From Acidobacteriota bacterium (GTDB lineage: Bacteria > Acidobacteriota > UBA890 > WLXD01): DNA of 64,000 nt. Each line of letters begins with the position of its first letter. Position 1 is the stretch's first letter. Below the pieces are notes generated by a model. That model did not search any database, had not been told where the DNA came from, and saw only the letters and a program-made list of their open reading frames with translations. Made by a program: the position numbers and the translations under genes. The stretch covers positions 868,001 through 932,000 of the forward strand of contig WLXD01000001.1 of the NCBI GenBank assembly GCA_012103255.1. The letters run 5' to 3'. Of the stretch, positions 8,629 to 22,113 are shown piece by piece.

Positions 8629-10139
8629 CTACCCGGGCGTCGCAGGCCGCCGCCAGGCCGCGCATCGGTCGGCGAGCCATCACGCCAAACAACCTGACCC
8701 GCGACCCACGTGCGGCGCACGCCTTCCGCCTGGCGGAGTGAGTAGCGGAACGTGCTGCGGGCGTGAATCGTGATCGGGTCGAAGGCGACCAGATCCGCAC
8801 GCTTGCCTGGCGCGACGATTCCTCGATCTTCCAACCCGAGTCGCGCGGCCGGCATGGAAGTGCCGCGCTGAATCGCGCGTTCCAGGCTGATCAAGCCGCG
8901 TTCACGTACGTAGTGCCCGAGCACCCGCGCGAACGCTCCAGCGCCGCGAGGGTGCGCGCTCCCGACGCCCCCATCACTGGCGGTCATCACCCATTCGGAG
9001 GCCATGAAGCGATCCACGTCGTCTTCGCTCATCGTGTGGCCGATCACGCCGGAGCCGCCTTTCGCCATCATGTCCATATACGCGTCGACGTCCGACATGC
9101 CCCACTGCGCAGCGGCCTCGTTGAGCCGCATGCCGTTCACCGACGGGTCCGGCTCGTAGCCCACGATCTGGAGTCGGTTGGCCCCGCCGATCGCCTCGAG
9201 CCCGGCGCGTACCTCGTTGGGATCCTGGAACTTCCGTGAGCGAACGACGATCGCCAGGCCTGACTGCCACGCTGTGTACGGGTACTGGTCCGCCAGCACG
9301 TCGACGCCGCGCGACCGCGCCTCGTCGATCAAGGCGAGGATGTCGACCGACTTGCCCCACACGGATGCGTTTCCGGCTTTCACGTGAGAGATCTGCACAG
9401 GAAGGTCTCCCTCCTCTCCGATTCGAATCGCCTCAGCGACCGCATCGAGCACGCCTTCTTCCTCGTCGCGCATGTGCGACATGTAGAAGCCGCCGTGAGT
9501 ACCGGCGACGCGGGCCAACTCGATGAGCTCCTCGGTGGTGGAGTAGAAGCCGGGGTCGTACTCGAGGCCGCTCGACAGCCCGAACGCTCCGTCGCGCATG
9601 CCGCGTTCAACGCGCCCGCGCATGTCGGACATCTCGCTGGTGGTCGCGGCCCGCGCGTAGTCGTCGCCGAGAGCGGCCCGTCGGACGGTGCCGTGGCCGA
9701 CCGTGACTCCAACCTGGAGGGACACCCCGATCCGGTCGATTTCATCAAGGTACTCGCCGACAGGCCAGGGCGACGAACCGTCAGCACCCACGATGATCGT
9801 CGTAACGCCCTGGGCGATCTGCGTCCGCGCAGTGGGGTCGCCCGCGATGCGATCTGTCGAGTGGTTGTGGATGTCGATGAAGCCGGGCGCAAGCACGAGA
9901 CCGGTCAGGTCTTCGGTCGCCGCGTCTGGAGGCACGTCGATCGAGCCAGCGGGCCCAACGGCCACGATCGTGGGCCCCTGAATCAGAACGTCGCCGACAA
10001 ACCCGGCTTGGCCGGTACCGTCGACAATGGTGGCTCCGCGCAGCAGGGTCGCAGTGGGCTCCTGGGCGGCGGTCGGGGCAACAGCGATCAAGGTCGCACA
10101 CGCGATCAGAAGGGCCCGTTGAACCAACGTGCGGGGCAT
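8625..10139 (-). CDS. Secreted N-acyl-D-amino-acid deacylase-type amidohydrolase
   Basis: The 504-residue protein starts with a signal peptide (MPRTLVQRALLIACATLIAVAPTAAQ), so it acts in the periplasm. It belongs to the D-aminoacylase branch of the amidohydrolase superfamily: HxH metal ligands H91/H93 in GFIDIHNHS, the D-aminoacylase block SSGLEYDPGFYSTTEELIELAR followed by YMSHMRDEEEG, the metal-binding region LPVQISHVK, the catalytic Asp region TASDGGVGSAHPR and the closing APGKRADLVAFDP. It probably hydrolyses an N-acyl D-amino acid or a related cyclic amide; the substrate is inferred only from family. The frame extends upstream to 10247, but only the ATG at 10139 gives a signal peptide. 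It is divergent from the giant ETF/ACAD fusion gene. Confidence 0.88.
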   Translation of the reverse strand: MPRTLVQRALLIACATLIAVAPTAAQEPTATLLRGATIVDGTGQAGFVGDVLIQGPTIVAVGPAGSIDVPPDAATEDLTGLVLAPGFIDIHNHSTDRIAGDPTARTQIAQGVTTIIVGADGSSPWPVGEYLDEIDRIGVSLQVGVTVGHGTVRRAALGDDYARAATTSEMSDMRGRVERGMRDGAFGLSSGLEYDPGFYSTTEELIELARVAGTHGGFYMSHMRDEEEGVLDAVAEAIRIGEEGDLPVQISHVKAGNASVWGKSVDILALIDEARSRGVDVLADQYPYTAWQSGLAIVVRSRKFQDPNEVRAGLEAIGGANRLQIVGYEPDPSVNGMRLNEAAAQWGMSDVDAYMDMMAKGGSGVIGHTMSEDDVDRFMASEWVMTASDGGVGSAHPRGAGAFARVLGHYVRERGLISLERAIQRGTSMPAARLGLEDRGIVAPGKRADLVAFDPITIHARSTFRYSLRQAEGVRRTWVAGQVVWRDGSPTDARPGGGLRRPGS

Positions 10140-10254
10140 AGCGTCATCCGTGTTCTGAGTTGCTAGTGGGGTTTCGGAGCATCGCATACCATTGAGGGCA
10201 TACATACCTGGGCGTTCGCGTGTCTCCGTCGTTTTCTCCGTCCTCATAGCCTAG

Positions 10255-13200
10255 ATGACCACGCTCCCATCGCACCGTTTCGACGTCATCGTCGTCGGTG
10301 CCGGCCCCGCTGGCGTCACTGCCGCGATGGCCCTGGGGAAAGCCGGCTTCTCCGTACTTGTGTGCGAAGCCGGCATCTACCCGGGTGCTGAAAACTGGTC
10401 CGGCGCCGTCTACTTCACAGAGAACCTCGAGCACCCGGATGCGTTCGGCAAAGAGGGCGTCGAAAGTGCGCCCTACGAGCGACGCCTGGTCGAGCGCGGG
10501 GCGTTTCTGTACAACGGCCACAGCCTGGTCGGCGCCAGCCTGAAATCGCCCGACGTGTTCCGGTCTTGCTACACGGTGCTGCGGCCGGTCTACGATCGCT
10601 ACCTCGCCGAAGTAGCCCGCGATACCGGTGTGGTGCTCTCTTGCGAGACCACGGTGCAGAGCTTGATTCGGCACGACGGTCGCGTGATCGGCGTACACAC
10701 CGAGCGCGGCCCGGCGTATGCCGACGTGGTGTTTCTTGCCGAGGGAGATGCGTCGCATCTGGTGACTCAGGAAGGCTACGAGCGCGTGTCCGCCGAAGAA
10801 CAGGCCGAGGGTGCGCCGCACTTCCTGCAGGGCGTGAAAGAGGTGATCAGCCTCGATCCGGGCGTAATCGAGGAGCGGTTCGGCCTCGCTCCGGGCGAAG
10901 GCGCCGCGATGGAGATGCTGCTGCGCAATGCCACGCGCAAAGGGCGCACGATTCGTCTCAACATGGGCGGTTTCCTGTACACCAATCGCGACAGCATTTC
11001 GCTGGGGTTCGTGCTGCCGCTCGACAACCTGAAGCACCACTTCGAAGGCAACCACAACATCCTGATGGAGTGGTACAAGCAACTGCCGGAGGTCGCCCGG
11101 CTGCTCGGCGGCGGCGAGCTGACGTCGTACGGCGCCAAGATCATCCGGGGTGGCGGCCTGCGTGAGATCCCGCGCATGGTCGCCGACGGGCTGGCCATCG
11201 GTGGCGCCGCTTCGGGAATTGGCGTCGACTTCCCCTATCCGAACTTCACCGGTCCAGCCACATCGATGGGCCTGCAGTTTGCTCAGGCGGTGATCGCGAT
11301 TGCCGGCGAAAACGGTGGTCCGGGCGGTGTTGCCAACCCCGCCGACTCGCCGTACACCGAAGCAGCGCTGCGCAAGAGCTACCTGAGCGCGGTCGAAGCC
11401 TCGCACTATTACCGCAGCGTGGACTACCTGCGGGATTGGCCGGCGTACATCGAGCGCACGCAGTTCTTCTTCGATCGGCAACTGGATCTGGCCAACAATG
11501 CGGCCGTCGCCGTGTCGCGACCCGGCCGTGGCCCGCTCGGTCGCTGGTGGGACTTCACGAAAGTCGTACGTCGCGCCGTGCCGGCGGCGGCGCTCGGCGA
11601 GGTTATGCGCGACACGAGGGAGCTCGGCGCCACGATCGGCCTCACCGGTTTGATCGGCGCTGCGCTGACTCCCGCGAACCTGGTCCGGGTGCTGTGGAAC
11701 ACGGTCGGCGCGCTGATTCCGTTCTCAAGCGACGCGCGCATCGGGGCTTCGGAACCGGACGCGTCCATTGAGACGAGCGGTGTTGCGGAGGCGACGAGTC
11801 ACGACGGCGCCCGGCTCCGCGCTGTGTTCCGTGTCGCCGCGGGCACCGAAGAGCCTGGCAGGCCGCCACTGCTGTTCCGCTGGTTCTGGCGTCGCTACGG
11901 CGGTGCACTGGCGAGTGCGTTCAGCGAGGTCTACACAAACGACGATGCCGCCATCGGCGACAAGCTCCGCGCGGCGGCCAGGCACGTCGGCGGGCGGGCT
12001 TCGATCTGGGACCTGATCGCGAAACTCGGTCTCGGGGCGATCCTCGGTGTCACGTGGGCGCTACAGGCTCTCTTTGATCGCCCCGGAGCGCAGATCGACG
12101 AGGACAGTGTCGACGGAACACTCGCCGCGAACCGCGAGCGCATCCGGCTGGACGACAGTCGCGTGAACATGAGCGTTCCGTACGAGACCAAGCTCGGAAC
12201 GATCACGTACCAGGAAGGCCATACGTCCCACATCAAGGTCATGTGGCCAGACGATCTGGGTGCCCGTCACGACATCACGAGTTCCGAGTTGTGGAACATC
12301 TGCCCGGCGAAGGTCTACGAGGTGCGGCGCAACCGCATGGGGCACCCCGGCATCGTCGTGAACTTCGACAACTGCATCAAGTGCGAGACCTGCTGGCGTG
12401 CCACCGACGACGTGCACTGGAGTCGCGCCACGCAGCAGCGGCTGATCTATCAGGTGTACACCCCGGCCCAGGCCGAACTGCACGCGTTTATCGAATCGCG
12501 ATCTGAGCCGACACCACGGTTGGGGAAGGGGAGCACCGTTCCGGGCGGGCTCGTTGACGGTACCAGCGCGATCAGCGCGACCGACGAAACGCTGTCAGCA
12601 GCGCGGCTTTTCCGAACGCACCTGGCGCGGGCGCGCGTGGCATTCGAAGCGTTCGCCGCTGACCTGCATCGTGCCCCGATGGCGCTGGACGCGGGGCGCC
12701 GAGCCAATCTAGGCGCCCTGGGCGCCAGCGCCGCGGAGGCGTGTGCGGAGGCTCGAGCAGTCTGGGACAGCACAGCGATGGGCGAGGTTCGCGCCACATG
12801 CGGCCCGGACGCCGCAGCTGTGTGGGAAGACGCGACCGCCAGGCTCGCGGAGTACGGCGGCCATATCGAGCGACGCCGGTTCTTCTGGGCCGAATTGTTG
12901 GGCCGCCAGCTTCTCGATCACCACTTCGCCACCTTGCAGCGCGCGTGCGACCGTGCGGTTCCGGCCGACGACATAGCCCCCGACACCTTGACTCTGTGGA
13001 GCGATGCCTTGGCCTGGCGCGCCCAGGAAGCCGGGTTCGAAGGTGAGGCCGAGACACGGTTGGCCATTCAAGAGTCGGCGACGGGCGTGTTCGATACCCA
13101 TGGGCTTCGCGCGATCGATCGCGGCGCGGAGCTCGAACCCGAACAGAAGGCGTGGCTTTGGCATCAAGTTCAAAGCGTCGCCGGGGCTGACCGGCGTCGC

Positions 13201-16200
13201 CGCGAGATCCTGGTTGAAGAACTTGCCGGGATCGACCCGGCGCTTGCGTATGTCGCCGGCTCCCACTTGTTGGCTCTCGACGTGCTCACGCAGGCCGGGC
13301 AGGTGGTGCCGACCGGCTGGCTGACGCTCGTTCACGGTGGATTGCGTGCCGTGACAAACGGGGAAGTGACGGCGGACGTTGACTTTGTTCCCGCCGCTGC
13401 CGCCGAGCATGCCGTGGTGGTGGCCGGCTCAGAAGCCGCGGTCGTACCGCTGCGGGCGGTCGGCGTATCGCTTGAAGATGTAGGCACCGTGGGCCTGATC
13501 GGGGCGCAGATTCGCCGCTTGCGCGTGAACGGATATCGGAGCGCGGCGTTCGACGTGACCAGCCAACTAGATTCGGTTGCTATCGAGTCTCCCGCCGCGG
13601 GCGAGCCATGGGCAGCGTTACTTGGTCCTTCGAGCAACTTCCTGGCTGCGCTCGTGCGCGGGGCCGGCAACTACCTTCTCGACCGAGCCCGCGATCACGC
13701 CTCCGGCCGCGTGCAGTTCCCTGGATCCTTCGAGGACGAAGCCGGCCGGGACACCATCGCCAAGTTTGGCGCGGTGAAGCAGATGCTGGCCGAGATGGAA
13801 GCCCATCGCTATGTGCTGGAGACGGCGTCGATGACGCCGTTGGCCGGTGACGACGAGTGGGCACACTCGGCCTCGCTCAAGATTCTGGCGTCCGACGCGT
13901 TCGGACCGGGCGAGCGTTCGTTTGGCTATCTCACCGGGCAGCTATTCGGCGGAACCGCGTTCTCCGAAGATGACGTGATCGCGAAGTTCTACCGCGACAG
14001 CGCTCCAGCGCGTTTTCTGTTTGGTCATGATGACGCCATCCGCGTCGCGCTCGGCCAACATCGACTAGCCGCAGACCGGCTCGTTCCGACATCGGCGGAC
14101 GAACAGGAGTGGCTCGATCGAGCGGGCGCTGGCGGAGCTCTTGCAGCACCTACAGCGCGACTTCTTCAGGCCATACATATTTTCGAGGCGTGGGGCCGCG
14201 AGGCGCAGGGCACAAATGACGAGCTGCTGCTGCATGTTGCCGGCACGATGGTGGTCCGAGCGCTCGCCGTGAAGGTGGTGCTCGTGCGTGCCGCCCGGCG
14301 TATCGAAGCCGGCCTGCCAACCGTTGCTCTCAGCGAGGCCGCGCGGCTGCTGGCCGATCGCTTGCTTGCGGACGCGCCAGCCCTTGCCGAGGAAGCAGAA
14401 CTCGCTCGCCACACCCTGGCAGCTGGTGAGGACCTGATCGCGCACGGCGATCCGTTCGTACCGCCCGCAGTCGCTGATGCGGCCGACTACGAGACTCTCT
14501 GCGCCGAGGAACGCGACCATCGTTCCGGCGAGTGGCTCACGGACGGCTTCGACGTCACGCACGCCCGCTACGTTCCGGAAATTCTCGGCAGCGATCCCCA
14601 CCTGGCAGACGCCTGGCGCGAACTCGAAGCTGAGTTCCGCGAACGCTATGTCGAGAAGGAATTCGATGGCCACCCGTACGGCCGCTGGCTTGAGCACCTG
14701 CACCTGATCCCACAGGAAGATCTCGACTACATGGTGCGGCGTGGCTTCATGCGCATGGTGATCGACGGCGAGCTGGGTGGTGAAGGACTCAAGAAGGCCC
14801 GCTACTACGTGTTGTGCATGCTCATCGGTCGCTACGGCGACGCCGCGCTCTCGCTGGCGATCATGGCGAACACGAGTATCGGTACGACGCCAACGACGAT
14901 CGGCCTCTATCAGGATCTGCCTCGCGCCCGCGCCGAGCTCGAGCGAGTCCGCGAGAACCCGGCGGTGCTCGGCGAGATTCGTGATGGCATCGATCGCGTC
15001 CTCACGATGGTGCCGCAAGGCGACCTCGAGGCGATCACAACGGCCTACAAAGAGGTTGGTGGACTCGTTCGTGGACGCGTGGCGAAGTCGATGGTGCTGC
15101 GCTACATCGGTGGTGGGTTCCTGCGTGCCTTCAATGGCGCGGGTCGCTCTGCCAAACAGCGCGATCTCATCGGCTTCGAGAAAGGCCTCCGGGGCGCGCG
15201 CGAGCTCATCGATGGAATTCTTGCCGGCGTCAATGAACGGCTCGAGGAATATCCCCGCCGCGAAGCTGCGCATCACTTCTTCCTGAAGACAATTTCCGCT
15301 GGCTACATCTCGGCCTTCGCGCTCACGGAACCCACGGCCGGCTCTGATTCGGGTGGGGTGAAGACGACGGCCCGCGCGGAAACACGCAGGGTTCGCCGCG
15401 ACGAGGACGGAGTGCTCTGGTTCTGGCTCGACGAGGACGCGCAGTCCGAACGGCGGTACGTGCTCGATGCCGACCGCGTCGAGTTCGACTACGACGGAAG
15501 CCGACTTCTGTACCGCTATGCCGACGACGCGCCCGCAACCCCGATCGATCATTCGGAGTACGACTACGACAAGGATTCGCCGGAGCGCATGCGGTCGTAC
15601 ATGCACGGTGACCGACGGGTGTACTTCACCGATATCGCGCAGCTACGGCTCGGCGAGGACGGTGAGCCGAGATACCAGTTCTGGGTGTTGAACGGCGCGA
15701 AGATGTGGATCACCAACGGGCGCTTCTCACACTGCATGGCCCTGTACGCGCGTACGGAGCCCGAAGGTGTCACAGGCTTCATGGTCGACCGACACGCCGA
15801 GGGTCTGGTGATCGGTGCGGATGAGGAGAAGCTGGGCCAGCGCGGCTCGCCGACCAATGAGATCTCCCTGAACAACGTCCGCGTGCCGCGCGAGAACATT
15901 CTCGGGTTCCGTGGCCGTGGTCAGGTGAACGCGCTTGAAACGCTCAACACCGGACGTGCGGGCCTGTGTGTCACAACACACAGCGCGATCCAGGAAATGG
16001 TCGAGGACGCGCACATCTATCTCAACGGCGAACCCTTGCGGCACTTCCCCTACCGGCAGCGATCCGCGGCGCGGCCGCTTGAGCGCTACTGGACGGGGCG
16101 CCTGGCCGAAGAGCTACTGGGCACGGCCGGCACTACCTACGAGATCATCGGCCTGCTCGACAACAAGCACACCGATTCGGTCCGGATGGAGTCGGCTGTA

Positions 16201-18822
16201 GGCAAGTATTACGGCTCGGAAGCGCAACACGACTGCGTCGACTGGATGGAGCGCGTCCGCGGGCTCGAAGGACAGACCTGGCTGCACCGGGTGGAGAAGA
16301 CGCGTCGTGATGCGCGCGTGCTCAACATCTACGAAGGCACAAATGAGGTGCAGCGATTCCTCGTGCTGAAGGATCTGGTGCAGCGCGTGCTGCCGGCCGT
16401 GCGCAAGACACCGCCGGCCGCGCCGTCGGCCGAGCTGGCGCACGCGGACCTGGCGGCGGAACTCTACGCGGCTCAGACCGCGCTCATGAAGCATGTTGGC
16501 GACGCCGTGGATCGCTTCGGTCAGCTCGTCTGGGCCAACGTAGGTGCACAGCCGTGCTTCCTCAGGCTTGCCGAGATTGCCGGAATGACCAAGGTCATTG
16601 ATTCCGTGCTCTATCGACTGGAATGGTGTGCTCGCCACGAGACTCCCGGAGAGCACCGCGACCGGATCGAGGCTATCGGGCGGCACTACATCCGACGCGC
16701 ACTGAGCCGGATCGGTGTTCTCGAGCGTCGGTACGAGCTTGCATATGCCTATCAGCTCGAAGGGCGGTATTCGCCCGAGACGCTGCTCGGAGTCCTTTCG
16801 CTCGAAGACAACGGAGCGGTGGTGGAAGCCCAGGGCGTGGTGCCGGCGGCGGCGAAAACGCCCGCGACCGCCGAGCCACTTTCGCGGCCGGTGCGGATCG
16901 CGGTACTGCTCCGACCGGTCCCGATGGATGCGCCTCGTCCTCGTCTCGACGGTGGGCGGTTCACCGAGCCGTTGCGCATCGCAAATCCGGACGACGCCGC
17001 CGCTCTCGAACTGGCGTTGCAGTTGCGTGCCCGGGATACGACCAACGTGGAGGTCGTTGCATACGGTTTGGGCGGCGACGACGTGCGACCACTACTGCGC
17101 GACGCGCTGGCACGCGGCGCGAGCAGCGCCTTCCACATCGATGTCGGCGCCAACACCTCGCTCCCCTACGACACACGGTTGGCGGCCGACGTGTGGGCGG
17201 CGACGATGCAGGAGCAGGCGCCTGATCTCGTGCTTTGCGGCGAGGTGGCGACAGACACGGGCCAGGTCGGAATCGGTTCGTTCGTAGCGGCAGTGTCAGA
17301 TCGCGAGCTCGTGATCGGTATCGACGGCGCCTCGTGGAGTCCCGAAGGTGAGCTCGCGGCTCGCAGCGACAACTGGGGCGGGACCGAAATCGAGGTTGCT
17401 CTGCCCGCTGTGCTCAGCGTAGTTGCGGGTCAGGGCACCGAAGCCGACGCCCAACTAGCGGATGTACTCGGAGCCGCGGCTGCCGAGATTCCACGCATCG
17501 CGGCGGCGGACCATGTGGCCGGCGTGCTTGCCCTCGATATTGCGCACGCAGCCCGAGTCACTGCCTCGGCTGGCGACGAGACCGGGGCCGTGGACTCTCC
17601 CGAAGACGCAGCGGGACTCGTGGCGGCCATGGCCGGTGAGTCCGCTGCGGGCGCGGGCAATGAAGCCCCCGCTTACGAAGGCCGCATGATGAGTCTGGGC
17701 GAACAGCCGCCCACGGACGAGCCGTCGTGTGTGTTCATCGCCGCCCCGGTTACGAATGAAACTGCTGGCACCGTAGCGTGCGGCGAACTCGAGGCCGCTG
17801 CGCGACTTGCCGCTGCCTCGGAGCTTCCGCTCGACGTGGTAGTTCCCGTAGACGGCGACGCCGCCGCAGCCGCGCTGGCCGTCGGCGCAGTTCTCAACGC
17901 CGCCACGCCGCGTCGGATCATCGCGATCACGGCCGCGGGCCTGAAAGACTTTGGCACTAGTGGACATCTGGAGTGGCTCGAGGAGTTCTGGGCCATGTAC
18001 CGTGCCGCGCCGCGCTGGCTCTTCGGCACGGAGTGGGCGAACGACCTGTTCGCGCGCTTTGCGCCACGCGTCGCAGCGACCGCGGAGGCCGGGCGGTGCT
18101 GGAACTGGCACAACGTTGAACTGCTCTCGAACGGCGATGGATTCCATGCTGCTACCCAGATCCTGGGCGGCGCCGCGCGCGCCGACGCCAAACTTCCCGT
18201 GGGCGATGGACTCCGGCTCATCACTCTAGCGAGCAACGTAGAGGCGCAGCTGAGGGACTGCGAGGTGTCTGCAGGCGAACCCGAGGTCTACGGGTGGGTG
18301 CCCCAGCTTGGCTACGCTCTGGGCAACGACCCCGTCGCCGCCGTGCTCGCTGCTCTAGGTCAGGACCAGGACGGATTGGAGAACGCCGAGTTCCTCATCG
18401 ATCTCGGCTACGGCGCCGGAGGTCGCGACGGCATCGACGAACTGGTCGAGCCACTCCGCAAGCTGCTCGCGGATGAGCTTGGTCTGGAACGCGTGATGGT
18501 CGGTGCTACCCGGAAGGTGACACAGGACCTCGAACTGCTTCCGATGGATCGGCAGATCGGCCAGACCGGGGTCAGCGTGAATCCCCGATTGATCGTCGCG
18601 TTGGCCGTATCGGGTGCACCGCAGCACGTCGACTACATCGGCGAGCGTGCAACGATCCTGTCGTTCAACATCGATCCGGACGCACCGCTGATGCGGCTCA
18701 ACGACCAGCGTGCTCGCCCGATCGTGCATCCCATCGTGGGTGATATCTGGGAGACCGTGCCGCGCTTCATCGAGGAGCTGCGGCGCCGCGCCTCCAGCGA
18801 TAGCTCGACTGACGAGAACTAG
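10255..18822 (+). CDS. Single-chain ETF-QO / ferredoxin / acyl-CoA dehydrogenase / ETF-beta / ETF-alpha fusion
   Basis: One uninterrupted 2,855-residue frame; an in-frame TAG sits immediately before the ATG. Residues 1-420 are FixC/ETF-QO (FAD motif VGAGPAG). About 440-630 holds hydrophobic stretches that could dip into the membrane. A [4Fe-4S] ferredoxin follows with C683-X23-C707-X2-C710-X2-C713. About 1000-1290 resembles an acyl-CoA dehydrogenase C-domain that lacks its catalytic Glu (Phe1256). About 1448-2060 is an intact-looking acyl-CoA dehydrogenase (TEPTAGSD from 1691, GAKMWITNG from 1814, catalytic Glu2027 in IYEGTNEVQR) with roughly 90 extra residues between the two flavin-site strands. 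ETF-beta covers about 2211-2460 and ETF-alpha 2490-2855 (QIGQTG, SGAPQH, FNIDPDAPL flavin-site residues present). Inferred role: passing electrons from acyl-CoA to quinone in one polypeptide. No clear Shine-Dalgarno sequence is seen. Confidence 0.9.
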   Translation: MTTLPSHRFDVIVVGAGPAGVTAAMALGKAGFSVLVCEAGIYPGAENWSGAVYFTENLEHPDAFGKEGVESAPYERRLVERGAFLYNGHSLVGASLKSPDVFRSCYTVLRPVYDRYLAEVARDTGVVLSCETTVQSLIRHDGRVIGVHTERGPAYADVVFLAEGDASHLVTQEGYERVSAEEQAEGAPHFLQGVKEVISLDPGVIEERFGLAPGEGAAMEMLLRNATRKGRTIRLNMGGFLYTNRDSISLGFVLPLDNLKHHFEGNHNILMEWYKQLPEVARLLGGGELTSYGAKIIRGGGLREIPRMVADGLAIGGAASGIGVDFPYPNFTGPATSMGLQFAQAVIAIAGENGGPGGVANPADSPYTEAALRKSYLSAVEASHYYRSVDYLRDWPAYIERTQFFFDRQLDLANNAAVAVSRPGRGPLGRWWDFTKVVRRAVPAAALGEVMRDTRELGATIGLTGLIGAALTPANLVRVLWNTVGALIPFSSDARIGASEPDASIETSGVAEATSHDGARLRAVFRVAAGTEEPGRPPLLFRWFWRRYGGALASAFSEVYTNDDAAIGDKLRAAARHVGGRASIWDLIAKLGLGAILGVTWALQALFDRPGAQIDEDSVDGTLAANRERIRLDDSRVNMSVPYETKLGTITYQEGHTSHIKVMWPDDLGARHDITSSELWNICPAKVYEVRRNRMGHPGIVVNFDNCIKCETCWRATDDVHWSRATQQRLIYQVYTPAQAELHAFIESRSEPTPRLGKGSTVPGGLVDGTSAISATDETLSAARLFRTHLARARVAFEAFAADLHRAPMALDAGRRANLGALGASAAEACAEARAVWDSTAMGEVRATCGPDAAAVWEDATARLAEYGGHIERRRFFWAELLGRQLLDHHFATLQRACDRAVPADDIAPDTLTLWSDALAWRAQEAGFEGEAETRLAIQESATGVFDTHGLRAIDRGAELEPEQKAWLWHQVQSVAGADRRRREILVEELAGIDPALAYVAGSHLLALDVLTQAGQVVPTGWLTLVHGGLRAVTNGEVTADVDFVPAAAAEHAVVVAGSEAAVVPLRAVGVSLEDVGTVGLIGAQIRRLRVNGYRSAAFDVTSQLDSVAIESPAAGEPWAALLGPSSNFLAALVRGAGNYLLDRARDHASGRVQFPGSFEDEAGRDTIAKFGAVKQMLAEMEAHRYVLETASMTPLAGDDEWAHSASLKILASDAFGPGERSFGYLTGQLFGGTAFSEDDVIAKFYRDSAPARFLFGHDDAIRVALGQHRLAADRLVPTSADEQEWLDRAGAGGALAAPTARLLQAIHIFEAWGREAQGTNDELLLHVAGTMVVRALAVKVVLVRAARRIEAGLPTVALSEAARLLADRLLADAPALAEEAELARHTLAAGEDLIAHGDPFVPPAVADAADYETLCAEERDHRSGEWLTDGFDVTHARYVPEILGSDPHLADAWRELEAEFRERYVEKEFDGHPYGRWLEHLHLIPQEDLDYMVRRGFMRMVIDGELGGEGLKKARYYVLCMLIGRYGDAALSLAIMANTSIGTTPTTIGLYQDLPRARAELERVRENPAVLGEIRDGIDRVLTMVPQGDLEAITTAYKEVGGLVRGRVAKSMVLRYIGGGFLRAFNGAGRSAKQRDLIGFEKGLRGARELIDGILAGVNERLEEYPRREAAHHFFLKTISAGYISAFALTEPTAGSDSGGVKTTARAETRRVRRDEDGVLWFWLDEDAQSERRYVLDADRVEFDYDGSRLLYRYADDAPATPIDHSEYDYDKDSPERMRSYMHGDRRVYFTDIAQLRLGEDGEPRYQFWVLNGAKMWITNGRFSHCMALYARTEPEGVTGFMVDRHAEGLVIGADEEKLGQRGSPTNEISLNNVRVPRENILGFRGRGQVNALETLNTGRAGLCVTTHSAIQEMVEDAHIYLNGEPLRHFPYRQRSAARPLERYWTGRLAEELLGTAGTTYEIIGLLDNKHTDSVRMESAVGKYYGSEAQHDCVDWMERVRGLEGQTWLHRVEKTRRDARVLNIYEGTNEVQRFLVLKDLVQRVLPAVRKTPPAAPSAELAHADLAAELYAAQTALMKHVGDAVDRFGQLVWANVGAQPCFLRLAEIAGMTKVIDSVLYRLEWCARHETPGEHRDRIEAIGRHYIRRALSRIGVLERRYELAYAYQLEGRYSPETLLGVLSLEDNGAVVEAQGVVPAAAKTPATAEPLSRPVRIAVLLRPVPMDAPRPRLDGGRFTEPLRIANPDDAAALELALQLRARDTTNVEVVAYGLGGDDVRPLLRDALARGASSAFHIDVGANTSLPYDTRLAADVWAATMQEQAPDLVLCGEVATDTGQVGIGSFVAAVSDRELVIGIDGASWSPEGELAARSDNWGGTEIEVALPAVLSVVAGQGTEADAQLADVLGAAAAEIPRIAAADHVAGVLALDIAHAARVTASAGDETGAVDSPEDAAGLVAAMAGESAAGAGNEAPAYEGRMMSLGEQPPTDEPSCVFIAAPVTNETAGTVACGELEAAARLAAASELPLDVVVPVDGDAAAAALAVGAVLNAATPRRIIAITAAGLKDFGTSGHLEWLEEFWAMYRAAPRWLFGTEWANDLFARFAPRVAATAEAGRCWNWHNVELLSNGDGFHAATQILGGAARADAKLPVGDGLRLITLASNVEAQLRDCEVSAGEPEVYGWVPQLGYALGNDPVAAVLAALGQDQDGLENAEFLIDLGYGAGGRDGIDELVEPLRKLLADELGLERVMVGATRKVTQDLELLPMDRQIGQTGVSVNPRLIVALAVSGAPQHVDYIGERATILSFNIDPDAPLMRLNDQRARPIVHPIVGDIWETVPRFIEELRRRASSDSSTDEN

Positions 18823-18829
18823 GCCCGGC

Positions 18830-20977
18830 TCACTGCCAGCCGATAGCGATCGTGAAACGATTGCGGCCGTCCTGGGCCCAACCGTAGTCGAGTTGTAGCG
18901 GACCAATCGGGGTCGCAACTGTGGCACCGATCCCGATGCCGCCGATCATGCTGTTCCAGCCGATCTGTTCCACGTGCTCCCAGGTGCCGGCGACGCCCAC
19001 CCTCGTGTACACACGCGCGATCGAGAACGGGTCGTAGCCGATCGAGATGGATGCACCAAGGGCTTGCGGCCCCCAGAATTCCTCACGCGCAGCGCCCGGC
19101 ACAAACTCCGGGCCGCCGAGGATGAACCACTCGGAAACCGGTGGCTCTCCCGAGGAGAATCCGTAGCGTGCGCGGCCTTCGAAGACAGCGGCGCCGAGCG
19201 ATCGGACCAGACGCAGTCGCGCATCGGCGCGCCAGTAGGAAGTCGTTGCGCCCACGCTCGCCTCATTGCGTTCGCCGATCGCCTCCAGACTGATCCCCTG
19301 TCGTGGCAGCGTGAGCGACTCGAGCGTATCCCACACGTAGCGTCCGAAGAGAATCCGCTTCTGTTCGACAGTGGCTTCGTAGGGCAAGCCGAGCCGTTCA
19401 GCCGCGCTCACGCGCCCTATGAGGATGCCCGCCTGACCGAGGTGGTTGCCGCCGAGTTGCCAGTCCACGCCCAGGCGAACATGCCTGCGGTCGAAATCCG
19501 CGCGGTTAATGAACTCCTTGTTCACGTAAGCCTTCGGACGCTCCTCGTGATACTCGACATCGACCTGGTAACCGAAGTGGGCGCCGAAGAGTTGTTCACC
19601 GCGGAGCGTCACGCCGACCTTGAGATCGCGCGCGCTGGCGAATCCGTTGAGCTGCAGCCGCTCCCCTCCACCAAAAACGTCGCGCGTCTCCAGTCGCAGA
19701 AACCCTTGCGCCTGGTCGTCGCTCTGATACGCCAGCCCGACATCGGCCGTGTGGCGGTACTGCTCGATCACGCGCAATTCCGCCACCATCGAGCCATCCT
19801 GGTGCTCGCGGAGGTCGATCCAGGCACCCTGCACCAGACTGGTGGAGTACAGGTGGTCCAGGGCGTGCAGCACGTCGTCGAACATGAAGCGACGGTCGAG
19901 TTTGAGGTCGCTCTCACGGATCAGGAACCGATCGGAGAGATACTCATTGCCGATGACTTCGATGTGGCCCAGGCGGCGCTCGCCGAAAGCCTTCTCACGG
20001 AGTGGAGGCGCGCGGTTCGGGCGCGTCTCCTTGAATCGATCGGGAATACGGTCGAGGGCGGCCTCCGCGGCCTCACGGCCGCGCTGGATCACGACTTCGA
20101 GAGTGGAGTAGTCGCTGAAGCTGTGATCGACGAGATTCGGTTCGATCGAAAGGTCGGGATCGGCGGCGTACTCGCGGTTCTTGGTGTCGTAGAGCAGGTC
20201 GACGATGCGCTGCGTTACACCGACAAGGTCGGGATCTACGTCGGGCTCGAGTGGAGTACGCACGTCCACGGCAATCACGTACTTCGCGCCCATTTTCTTG
20301 GCCAGGTCGACCGGGAGATTATCGACAAGGCCGCCGTCGACAAGCACTGCATCACCCCAAGCCACGGCAGGGTAGGCGAGGGGCACAGACATGCTGGCTC
20401 GCACTGCCCGCGCGAGGTCGCCCTCCGAGAGGATCACGCGGTCGCCGGTCCGCAGGTCGGTTCCGACGGTTCGAAACGGGATGGGTAGACGGTCGAACTC
20501 ACGCCCGGCCGCAAATCCGGCGGGGGCGAGGAGTTCAACGAGCGCGTTGTTCAGCTGCCCATCGTGAAGGATGCCGCGGGGGAACCGCACGCCGTCGGCA
20601 CCGAAGCCAATGCGCAGCGCGGTGCGCTCCTGCTCTAGGCGATGCGCGATCGGCACAGCGCCGCGATTCATCGGTTCGGCGTAGATGTTGCGCCACGTCA
20701 GCCCGCCGATAAGCGCGTGGATGTCGTCGAGGCCGTACCCCGCAGCATAGAGCGAACCCACGATCGCACCCATACTCGCGCCGGTCATGCAGTCGGGGCG
20801 GATGCCGTTCGCCTCCAGTACCTCGAGCACGCCTACATGCGCAGCGCCGCGTGCACCGCCGCCGCTCAATACCAGGCCGAGCTCGCACGTTGGTGGCGCG
20901 GCCGATGCTGGTTCCTGGGCATGCGCCTGCCAGGTGATCGTGAGCAGGGCCATGATGGCGGCGCTTCTTGTCAGCAT
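18830..20977 (-). CDS. Patatin-like phospholipase with C-terminal Omp85-type barrel
   Basis: A 715-residue protein with signal peptide (MLTRSAAIMALLTITWQAHAQ). The patatin domain has the oxyanion motif SGGGARG (39-44), the nucleophile motif GASMG with Ser68, and the Asp of the dyad in VLVDGGLVDNLPVDLA. A POTRA-like segment (LGHIEVIGNEYLSDRFL) and a 16-strand BamA/D15-like barrel ending in an aromatic-rich strand (FTIAIGWQ) follow. This is the architecture of PlpD-type (type Vd) autotransporters/phospholipases, suggesting a lipase delivered to or held at the outer membrane. The start at 20977 is chosen for the signal peptide; the upstream extension has none. Only 7 nt separate its stop from that of the convergent fusion gene. 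Confidence 0.9.
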   Translation of the reverse strand: MLTRSAAIMALLTITWQAHAQEPASAAPPTCELGLVLSGGGARGAAHVGVLEVLEANGIRPDCMTGASMGAIVGSLYAAGYGLDDIHALIGGLTWRNIYAEPMNRGAVPIAHRLEQERTALRIGFGADGVRFPRGILHDGQLNNALVELLAPAGFAAGREFDRLPIPFRTVGTDLRTGDRVILSEGDLARAVRASMSVPLAYPAVAWGDAVLVDGGLVDNLPVDLAKKMGAKYVIAVDVRTPLEPDVDPDLVGVTQRIVDLLYDTKNREYAADPDLSIEPNLVDHSFSDYSTLEVVIQRGREAAEAALDRIPDRFKETRPNRAPPLREKAFGERRLGHIEVIGNEYLSDRFLIRESDLKLDRRFMFDDVLHALDHLYSTSLVQGAWIDLREHQDGSMVAELRVIEQYRHTADVGLAYQSDDQAQGFLRLETRDVFGGGERLQLNGFASARDLKVGVTLRGEQLFGAHFGYQVDVEYHEERPKAYVNKEFINRADFDRRHVRLGVDWQLGGNHLGQAGILIGRVSAAERLGLPYEATVEQKRILFGRYVWDTLESLTLPRQGISLEAIGERNEASVGATTSYWRADARLRLVRSLGAAVFEGRARYGFSSGEPPVSEWFILGGPEFVPGAAREEFWGPQALGASISIGYDPFSIARVYTRVGVAGTWEHVEQIGWNSMIGGIGIGATVATPIGPLQLDYGWAQDGRNRFTIAIGWQ

Positions 20978-21057
20978 CGTGCTCCGGATAGCTTCCACGC
21001 CCCGTAGCGGACGTGACGCCGTCAAGCGGTTCGAGGCAATATTACTTCTTCAAGGTC

Positions 21058-22113
21058 ATGAAGAGCCGTACCCCCAGGAACTCATCGATGGCGCGCGCCG
21101 CCGCAGTGACTGCCGTTCTCGCGGCGGGCGCCGTGGCTATGGTCGTGGCTGATGCCGCCGCGCAAGCGCCGATGCCGACGCGCGCGCTGAGTTTCGACGT
21201 AGGTGAGGAGCGGCGATACCGGATCGGTCCCAAGGAGTCACTCGGGGTCGGTGAGTCCGCCGAATGGACGCTCGCGCTCCGCAGTATTGTCGACGAGAAC
21301 GGTGAATACGTCGCCAATTTCGAGTTCACTCACGAGCGCTTCGAATCGATTCCGGGAAGTTTTGATCCGGCCGCCGGGTTCATGATCGTCAACGTGACCG
21401 GGCGGCTACGTACGAACCTCGCAGGCTTCCCGCTCTGGCTCGAGTACACCCAGGAGTTCGACGGCGATGATGGCGAGTGGAGCGACAGCGGACAGCGGCT
21501 GTTTCGCTACGTGTACGAGGGTGAAGGCAAGTACCGGAAATTCATCAAGGCCGGTCGCAATGACTGGGACTTCAAGGTGCCGATCCCGAAGTACAAGCAC
21601 ATGGACTTCGAGGGTCCGCAGGGGCTCTACATGTACCTGCCCACGGCGCTGGAGTGTGTCGGCACTTCTCGTGGGACGTGCATAGAGTCGGAGCCCGCAT
21701 TCGCCAACCCGGGTTTCCTGAGTATGCTCGCCGCCGCCCTCGAGGAGGTTGAAGAAGGCAAGCGAGACTTCATGTTCTTCATGCCCGGCGGATTGGCGCA
21801 GTCGCCGTTCATGCCACTGACGTCCGGCAGCTGGCTATCGCGCGAGCGCGACCAGATCGGCTCAGCCCGCCGCTACTTCGACACGGTGAAACTCACGCTG
21901 GGTACGAGTTGGGACATCGACGTCGGCCCGAAGAACCTTCACGCCTGGGAGGTTGAGCTCTGTTGTGGCATCAAGCACGTCTACATCGAGCCGGGCGGCA
22001 GGGTTTTGCGGGTGAATCTCGATACCACCGTGACGAATCCCGACGAGCGATACATCCGACTGGTGTTCCCATTCGAGGAATTCCTGTCGAACGAGGACCC
22101 TGTCCTGCGCTAG
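21058..22113 (+). CDS. Secreted protein of unknown function
   Basis: A 351-residue protein with an N-terminal signal sequence (a basic stretch then AAAVTAVLAAGAVAMVVADAAAQ). The rest is beta-rich with many aromatic residues (FDVGEERRYRIGP; FEFTHERFESIPG; YTQEFDGDDGEWSDSGQRLFRYVYEG; LDTTVTNPDERYIRLVFPFEEF) and contains an exposed Cys pair (VELCCGIKHVY) plus two further Cys near residues 200-207. I recognise no domain. ATG 21058 is chosen because AAGG lies just upstream and the signal peptide follows. It is divergent from the patatin gene, 80 nt away. Confidence 0.7.
   Translation: MKSRTPRNSSMARAAAVTAVLAAGAVAMVVADAAAQAPMPTRALSFDVGEERRYRIGPKESLGVGESAEWTLALRSIVDENGEYVANFEFTHERFESIPGSFDPAAGFMIVNVTGRLRTNLAGFPLWLEYTQEFDGDDGEWSDSGQRLFRYVYEGEGKYRKFIKAGRNDWDFKVPIPKYKHMDFEGPQGLYMYLPTALECVGTSRGTCIESEPAFANPGFLSMLAAALEEVEEGKRDFMFFMPGGLAQSPFMPLTSGSWLSRERDQIGSARRYFDTVKLTLGTSWDIDVGPKNLHAWEVELCCGIKHVYIEPGGRVLRVNLDTTVTNPDERYIRLVFPFEEFLSNEDPVLR

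Follow-up and report, generated by a model that had tools for sequence, protein, structure and literature searches.

The hand-over of electrons by ETF has usually been studied with diffusing, transient partners, in systems where acyl-CoA dehydrogenase (ACAD), ETF and ETF-quinone oxidoreductase (ETF-QO) are separate proteins. Some ACADs are tandem proteins, such as FadE34. In the alpha2beta2 ACADs, the catalytic Glu and the isoalloxazine site are located on one subunit, whereas the other, Glu-less subunit holds the ADP-ribose of the FAD (PMC11153573). Among the Group-2 ETFs, replacement of the Arg of the RPXFGG motif in the EtfABCX of T. maritima abolishes ferredoxin reduction (PMC10734219). 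A literature search of partial coverage returned no description of a single-chain ACAD-ETF-ETF-QO-like fusion, in agreement with the preliminary description of the present DNA, which knew of none.

The window, the whole stretch of 64,000 nucleotides analysed here, derives from a 1.47 Mb contig of a 4.8 Mb acidobacterial genome (G000) and is free of N. It contains a single ATG-to-stop frame of 2,855 amino acids that is present exactly as first reported, and its codon-position GC is of the coding type over the full length of the ORF (Table 1). The encoded modules follow each other as a FixC FAD domain, a hydrophobic linker, a FixX/ETF-QO-type [4Fe-4S] domain, a degenerate ACAD (ACAD*), an intact ACAD, EtfB and EtfA. 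This order had been proposed before, and was recovered by Pfam, NCBIfam and PDB profile searches (FixC FAD at residues 1-405, Fer4_ETF_QO at 675-722, a strong ACAD match at 1805-2040, EtfB at ~2240-2420 and the EtfA FAD domain at 2708-2792) and, for ACAD*, by a profile of its homologues. The proposal of a single-chain ACAD-ETF-ETF-QO-like electron path is thereby supported at the level of sequence, with all of the modules in one frame and the redox-site motifs conserved. An antisense ORF of 513 amino acids inside the fused gene (14065-15606, minus strand) failed the codon-position filter and is probably a shadow ORF.

Table 1. Features of the fused gene (window positions; residues of the encoded protein in brackets)
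Feature	Position	Strand	Evidence
Fused protein ORF	10255..18822	+	full-length fused homologues L010 (70%), L009 (52%)
FixC/EtfC-type FAD, quinone-reductase domain (aa 1-405)	10255..11469	+	7koe_C FixC 1e-38; NCBIfam FixC 4e-44
Linker with two hydrophobic segments (aa ~459-477, ~588-606)	11470..12174	+	hydropathy peaks; no family match
FixX/ETF-QO-type [4Fe-4S] domain	12202..12474	+	PF05187 2.6e-5; Cys683, Cys707, Cys710, Cys713
Helical extension ahead of ACAD* (aa 780-930)	12592..13044	+	no family match; poorly conserved
ACAD*, acyl-CoA dehydrogenase without the catalytic Glu (aa 935-1290)	13057..14124	+	homologue profile, AlphaFold2, fold match
ACAD* R-x-Q-F (Arg1152, Gln1154, Phe1155), partner-side FAD motif	13696..13797	+	kept in all fused homologues
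ACAD* Q-x-F-G-G (Gln1229, Gly1232, Gly1233), second partner-side FAD motif	13930..13974	+	invariant
ACAD* catalytic-Glu position, here Phe1256 (Leu/Ile/Tyr in homologues)	13999..14043	+	alignment/motif table
ACAD* helical C-terminal extension and junction (aa 1291-1425)	14125..14529	+	
ACAD, intact catalytic, two insertions	14530..16389	+	PF02770, PF00441, PF02771; VLCAD/ACAD9-type PDB matches
ACAD catalytic motif IYEGTNE, Glu2027	16315..16356	+	conserved in every homologue covering the site
VLCAD-like helical C-terminal extension and junction to EtfB	16390..16824	+	
EtfB (beta) domain (aa 2211-2420)	16885..17514	+	1o94_C 5.7e-16, 1efp_B profiles; 1efv_B fold 5.8e-12
EtfA (alpha) domain (aa 2475-2850)	17677..18804	+	PF00766 2.9e-14; 7koe_B, 5ol2_A, 1efv_A

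Two MAGs, assembled separately, each carry a full-length fused homologue on one contig, JAJCXT010000052.1 (L010, genome G002) and PBML01000034.1 (L009, genome G004), the latter from a different family. As both carry the identical module order in one frame, chance is excluded, and so is an assembly join at 10255-18822, an error that the preliminary description had wished to see checked. Substitutions between homologues are rich in third codon positions in the modules, and wherever lengths differ they do so by whole codons. Two junctions, FixX/ACAD* and ACAD/EtfB, show the variability of free linkers, which favors the alternative that one gene gives rise to several proteins, with internal starts or proteolysis yielding ordinary subunits. 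This is very unlikely, as the frame at these junctions is open in all homologues, none of which is divided into separate genes by stop codons at the domain borders, a pattern that would have spoken against a fusion. Nor does any domain boundary in the fused gene have a Shine-Dalgarno sequence with a start, and internal starts were not supported on this ground; such sites occur only within domains, at residues 1720, 2272 and 2581. A scan for promoters and terminators was uninformative.

Other genomes do share the domain order. In a sample of the class comprising nine genomes from four genera and two families, the fusion is present in six, which span three genera and both families, and the three genomes lacking it are all incomplete (72-83%). 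In three of the carriers (G001, G003 and G007) the gene spans contig ends, which overlap between two contigs in G001, and locus L011 holds half a fused homologue, interrupted by the end of its contig. One G003 contig (C142, L038) is near-identical to L016 over the first ~900 residues and then diverges, while another (C151) covers the same stretch; C142 looks like an assembly chimera of G007-like and G003-like copies of the fused gene, and was therefore excluded from domain alignments A2-A7. A peptide scan of 84,980 species genomes, which reaches close relatives only, had matches at just three loci (L010, L009 and L011), all in Acidobacteriota MAGs. Among 396 Acidobacteriota genomes, an ACAD* profile detected nothing comparable outside the class (~387 other genomes), and an ACAD-domain profile likewise found no comparable protein there, the full-length carriers scoring 1,520-1,650 bits and the best outsider 137. 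Other phyla were covered by the peptide scan and by a search of 72,556 plasmid records, in which no place covered 80% of the fused-protein query; fused forms on plasmids were rejected accordingly.

The FixC domains of the fused proteins group as a single clade in a small tree (100/99), separate from the stand-alone FixC that these genomes also encode; as some branches are long, the wider placement is unsure. Every genome of the order, carriers included, has at least one stand-alone EtfA, and G000 additionally encodes a stand-alone FixC followed by FixX. The fusion is thus an addition to the ordinary machinery, and the separate FixC clade together with the ordinary ETF of each carrier suggests an old, dedicated paralogue. 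Most simply read, the fusion arose before the two families diverged and was retained thereafter. We judge it quite probable that the gene has been vertically inherited and encodes a real single-chain acyl-CoA:menaquinone oxidoreductase.

The surroundings of the gene are partly conserved. In the genus, an amidohydrolase gene lies syntenically upstream and a patatin-Omp85 gene downstream, and the synteny of the amidohydrolase extends to the family. The downstream gene (18830-21025, minus strand), which is convergent with the fused gene, combines a patatin phospholipase with an Omp85-type barrel. In both families, a secreted protein family with no Pfam match is encoded downstream of the fused gene (21013-22113, plus strand, in the window; L010:20900-21967), with further copies at L009 ~9208-11241 and L039 ~1478-2984 and an apparent duplication in G004 and G007. 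In G004, a gene resembling hotdog acyl-CoA thioesterases comes next after the genes of this family.

The quinone side of the chain comprises two domains of the ETF-QO and FixC-FixX quinone oxidoreductases, a FixC-type FAD domain and a four-cysteine [4Fe-4S] domain. The claim of a FixC/ETF-QO module thus stood insofar as a quinone module is present, although its FAD domain resembles FixC/FixX more than mitochondrial ETF-QO, the nearest relative being the FixC of EtfABCX (7koe_C, 1e-38) and the mitochondrial protein matching far more weakly (2.5e-10). The FixC domain is 74-87% identical among the fused homologues, with VVGAGPAG and GLAIGGAAS conserved. PF05187, the cluster domain, scores 24.8 bits against a cut-off of 24, and the four cluster cysteines are conserved wherever the base is readable, the first being obscured by an N in L009. 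PF21162, which represents the quinone-binding/membrane-surface region, scores 18.2 bits, below its cut-off of 27.7. The hydropathy peaks of the linker recur at equivalent places in several homologues, and the two segments are candidate membrane-dipping helices.

The ACAD region had been described as a degenerate ACAD followed by an intact one. The first of these (residues ~935-1290) has no Pfam match. A profile built from its homologues, however, picks up VLCAD-type ACADs among PDB entries (best E 1.3e-5) as well as ordinary ACADs of other genomes (best 2e-12), and conversely the region is matched by a panel of ordinary ACADs from Acidobacteriota. By these comparisons, ACAD* is a diverged ACAD, with 38-59% identity overall among the fused homologues. 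Its catalytic Glu and the isoalloxazine-side motifs are lost, and to this extent the description as degenerate stood; mere decay probably does not account for it, since the FAD-partner motifs are invariant. The intact ACAD exceeds the Pfam cut-offs (PF02770 69 bits against 33.3, PF00441 73.8 against 22.4, PF02771 23.1 against 22.9) and conserves TEPxAGSD and WITN. Its two insertions (residues ~1561-1680 and ~1706-1805) are unmatched in outside relatives, and the first is partly absent in G003.

The losses in the two domains are complementary. ACAD* lacks the Glu and has RxQF and QxFGG, whereas ACAD has the Glu and lacks RxQF in all fused homologues covering the region, with the Gln of QIFGG also lost. 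On the basis of known ACAD structures, we take RxQF and QxFGG to be the motifs lent to the FAD of the partner subunit, equivalent to Arg281, Gln349 and Gly353 of MCAD. At the level of sequence motifs, ACAD and ACAD* show the division of labor seen in heteromeric ACADs. The likeliest reading of this complementarity is that the two domains form an intrachain pseudo-heterodimer sharing one FAD, in which ACAD* is probably not dead but serves as a half-site FAD-binding partner. Structure modelling, which had been suggested as a check, agrees with the fold assignments but does not show the ACAD*/ACAD interface. The AlphaFold2 model of residues 935-2125 (seven sequences) has a mean pLDDT of 50, reaching ~80 in the N-terminal helical and beta-barrel part of ACAD*, and its top fold matches are VLCAD/ACAD9. 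For residues 2195-2850 (five sequences) the mean pLDDT is 56, and this low-confidence model gave the EtfB match to 1efv_B (Foldseek, 5.8e-12). Given the low confidence, only the ranking in the fold library was used.

The best named NCBIfam matches of the two ETF halves are mft_etfA and mft_etfB. EtfA conserves the FAD motif TR..QIGQTG..SGAPQH..NID and scores 53 bits with PF00766 against a cut-off of 27. EtfB is the fastest-evolving module (32-47% identity); it keeps D-T-G/A-Q, and its nucleotide site is putative. The nearest solved relatives of the FixC and EtfA modules come from the bifurcating EtfABCX and EtfB keeps D-T-G-Q, both of which are consistent with an ETF module that bifurcates or confurcates between NADH, ferredoxin and acyl-CoA or quinone, in the manner of EtfABCX or Bcd-EtfAB. 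Against this, the RPXFGG Arg needed for ferredoxin reduction is absent from EtfA in every fused homologue covering the site, as judged from an alignment with CarE and a motif table, EtfB evolves fast, and there is one four-cysteine set where EtfX has two clusters (PMC10734219). Bifurcation by this chain is, therefore, highly improbable. With the bifurcation Arg missing, the ETF module is predicted to be non-bifurcating and a linear electron chain is favored.

For the usual separate proteins the preliminary description named ubiquinone as the acceptor, which is the less probable choice for this linear chain. G000 encodes two MqnA/MqnD-type proteins of the futalosine menaquinone pathway and three haem-copper oxidases, and has no match to MenD, so that the host uses menaquinone and is probably aerobic, and the acceptor is probably menaquinone. 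Two other genomes of the class (G006 and G008, genus g4) have ETF and no FixC match, and may use an alternative link from ETF to quinone. The potential of saturated acyl-CoA is near 0 mV. Menaquinone, at about -74 mV (PMC10734219), is poorly suited to accept its electrons, which makes the reverse reaction a serious rival: menaquinol would reduce enoyl-CoA by way of FixC, FixX, ETF and ACAD, in a respiratory or biosynthetic reductase. A menaquinone genome and the presence of the acryloyl-CoA reductase AcrC and the caffeyl-CoA reductase CarC among the better ACAD matches would fit such a role. The ACAD is equally VLCAD/FadE-like, haem-copper oxidases are present in the genome and no linked reductive pathway occurs among the neighbors examined, and the reverse direction is on balance unlikely.

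In the oxidative direction, which is preferred here, acyl-CoA would be oxidized at the FAD shared by ACAD and ACAD*, with ACAD contributing Glu2027 and the isoalloxazine half and ACAD* the Arg/Gln half, which would bind the ADP moiety of the FAD. Single electrons would then pass to the alpha-FAD of a tethered, swinging ETF domain, and from there to the FixX cluster, the FixC FAD and menaquinone at the membrane face; this order of transfer is drawn by analogy with the separate-protein ACAD/ETF/ETF-QO system. Tethering may raise rate and exclusivity and leaves the equilibrium unchanged. The fused chain would work beside the ordinary EtfBA and FixCX, not replace them, and would be dedicated to one set of acyl-CoAs, bypassing the shared ETF pool; the earlier ideas of a single acyl-CoA class, of channelling and of a swinging ETF domain may hold.

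A protein that works as this sequence suggests would lead electrons from acyl-CoA to menaquinone like a self-contained wire. We lean towards regarding it as the first acyl-CoA:menaquinone oxidoreductase known to occur naturally as a single chain; in it, a split ACAD would deliver electrons to a captive ETF and a membrane-bound FixC, taking a step of beta-oxidation off the shared ETF pool. With the partners covalently joined by nature, their stoichiometry is fixed, and expression, assay and imaging of the entire path could become possible on a single molecule. The ACAD/ACAD* pair offers a clear example of two domains that have decayed in complementary ways, and the fusion is a possible answer to the drainage of electrons from acyl-CoA in a menaquinone-using aerobe.

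With the ACAD, ETF and ETF-QO of beta-oxidation, the fused protein shares the redox modules, the presumed electron order, the catalytic Glu, the EtfA FAD site and the four-cysteine cluster. It differs from them in being one chain, in its FixC/FixX-like quinone module and menaquinone genome, and in the split of the ACAD into a catalytic and a FAD-partner half. EtfABCX and FixABCX have the same set of FixC, FixX, EtfB and EtfA, with 7koe_C as the nearest FixC, whereas here an ACAD has been added, everything is fused, the bifurcation Arg is lost and there is one ETF-QO-type four-cysteine set. Bcd-EtfAB and CarCDE resemble the fusion in their stable pairing of ACAD and ETF, but consist of separate subunits, bifurcate and are without a quinone module. 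Mycobacterial EtfD also links ETF to menaquinone, but is not homologous and carries haem and multiple clusters (PMC13083937). The mycofactocin-associated EtfA-FixC-ferredoxin-EtfB cluster brings the same modules together, although as separate genes and with no ACAD; one such mycofactocin-linked set of separate genes is located on a Streptomyces plasmid (L085, NZ_CP108009.1 131765-136037). The alpha2beta2 heterotetramers FadE26-FadE27, FadE28-FadE29 and IpdE1-IpdE2 likewise pair a catalytic with a non-catalytic ACAD around one FAD site (PMC11153573), whereas here the two stand in tandem in one chain, are VLCAD-like and are fused to the remaining electron chain. Every module of the fused protein is known; what is new, as far as tested, is their covalent assembly and, within it, the pair of complementary ACADs.
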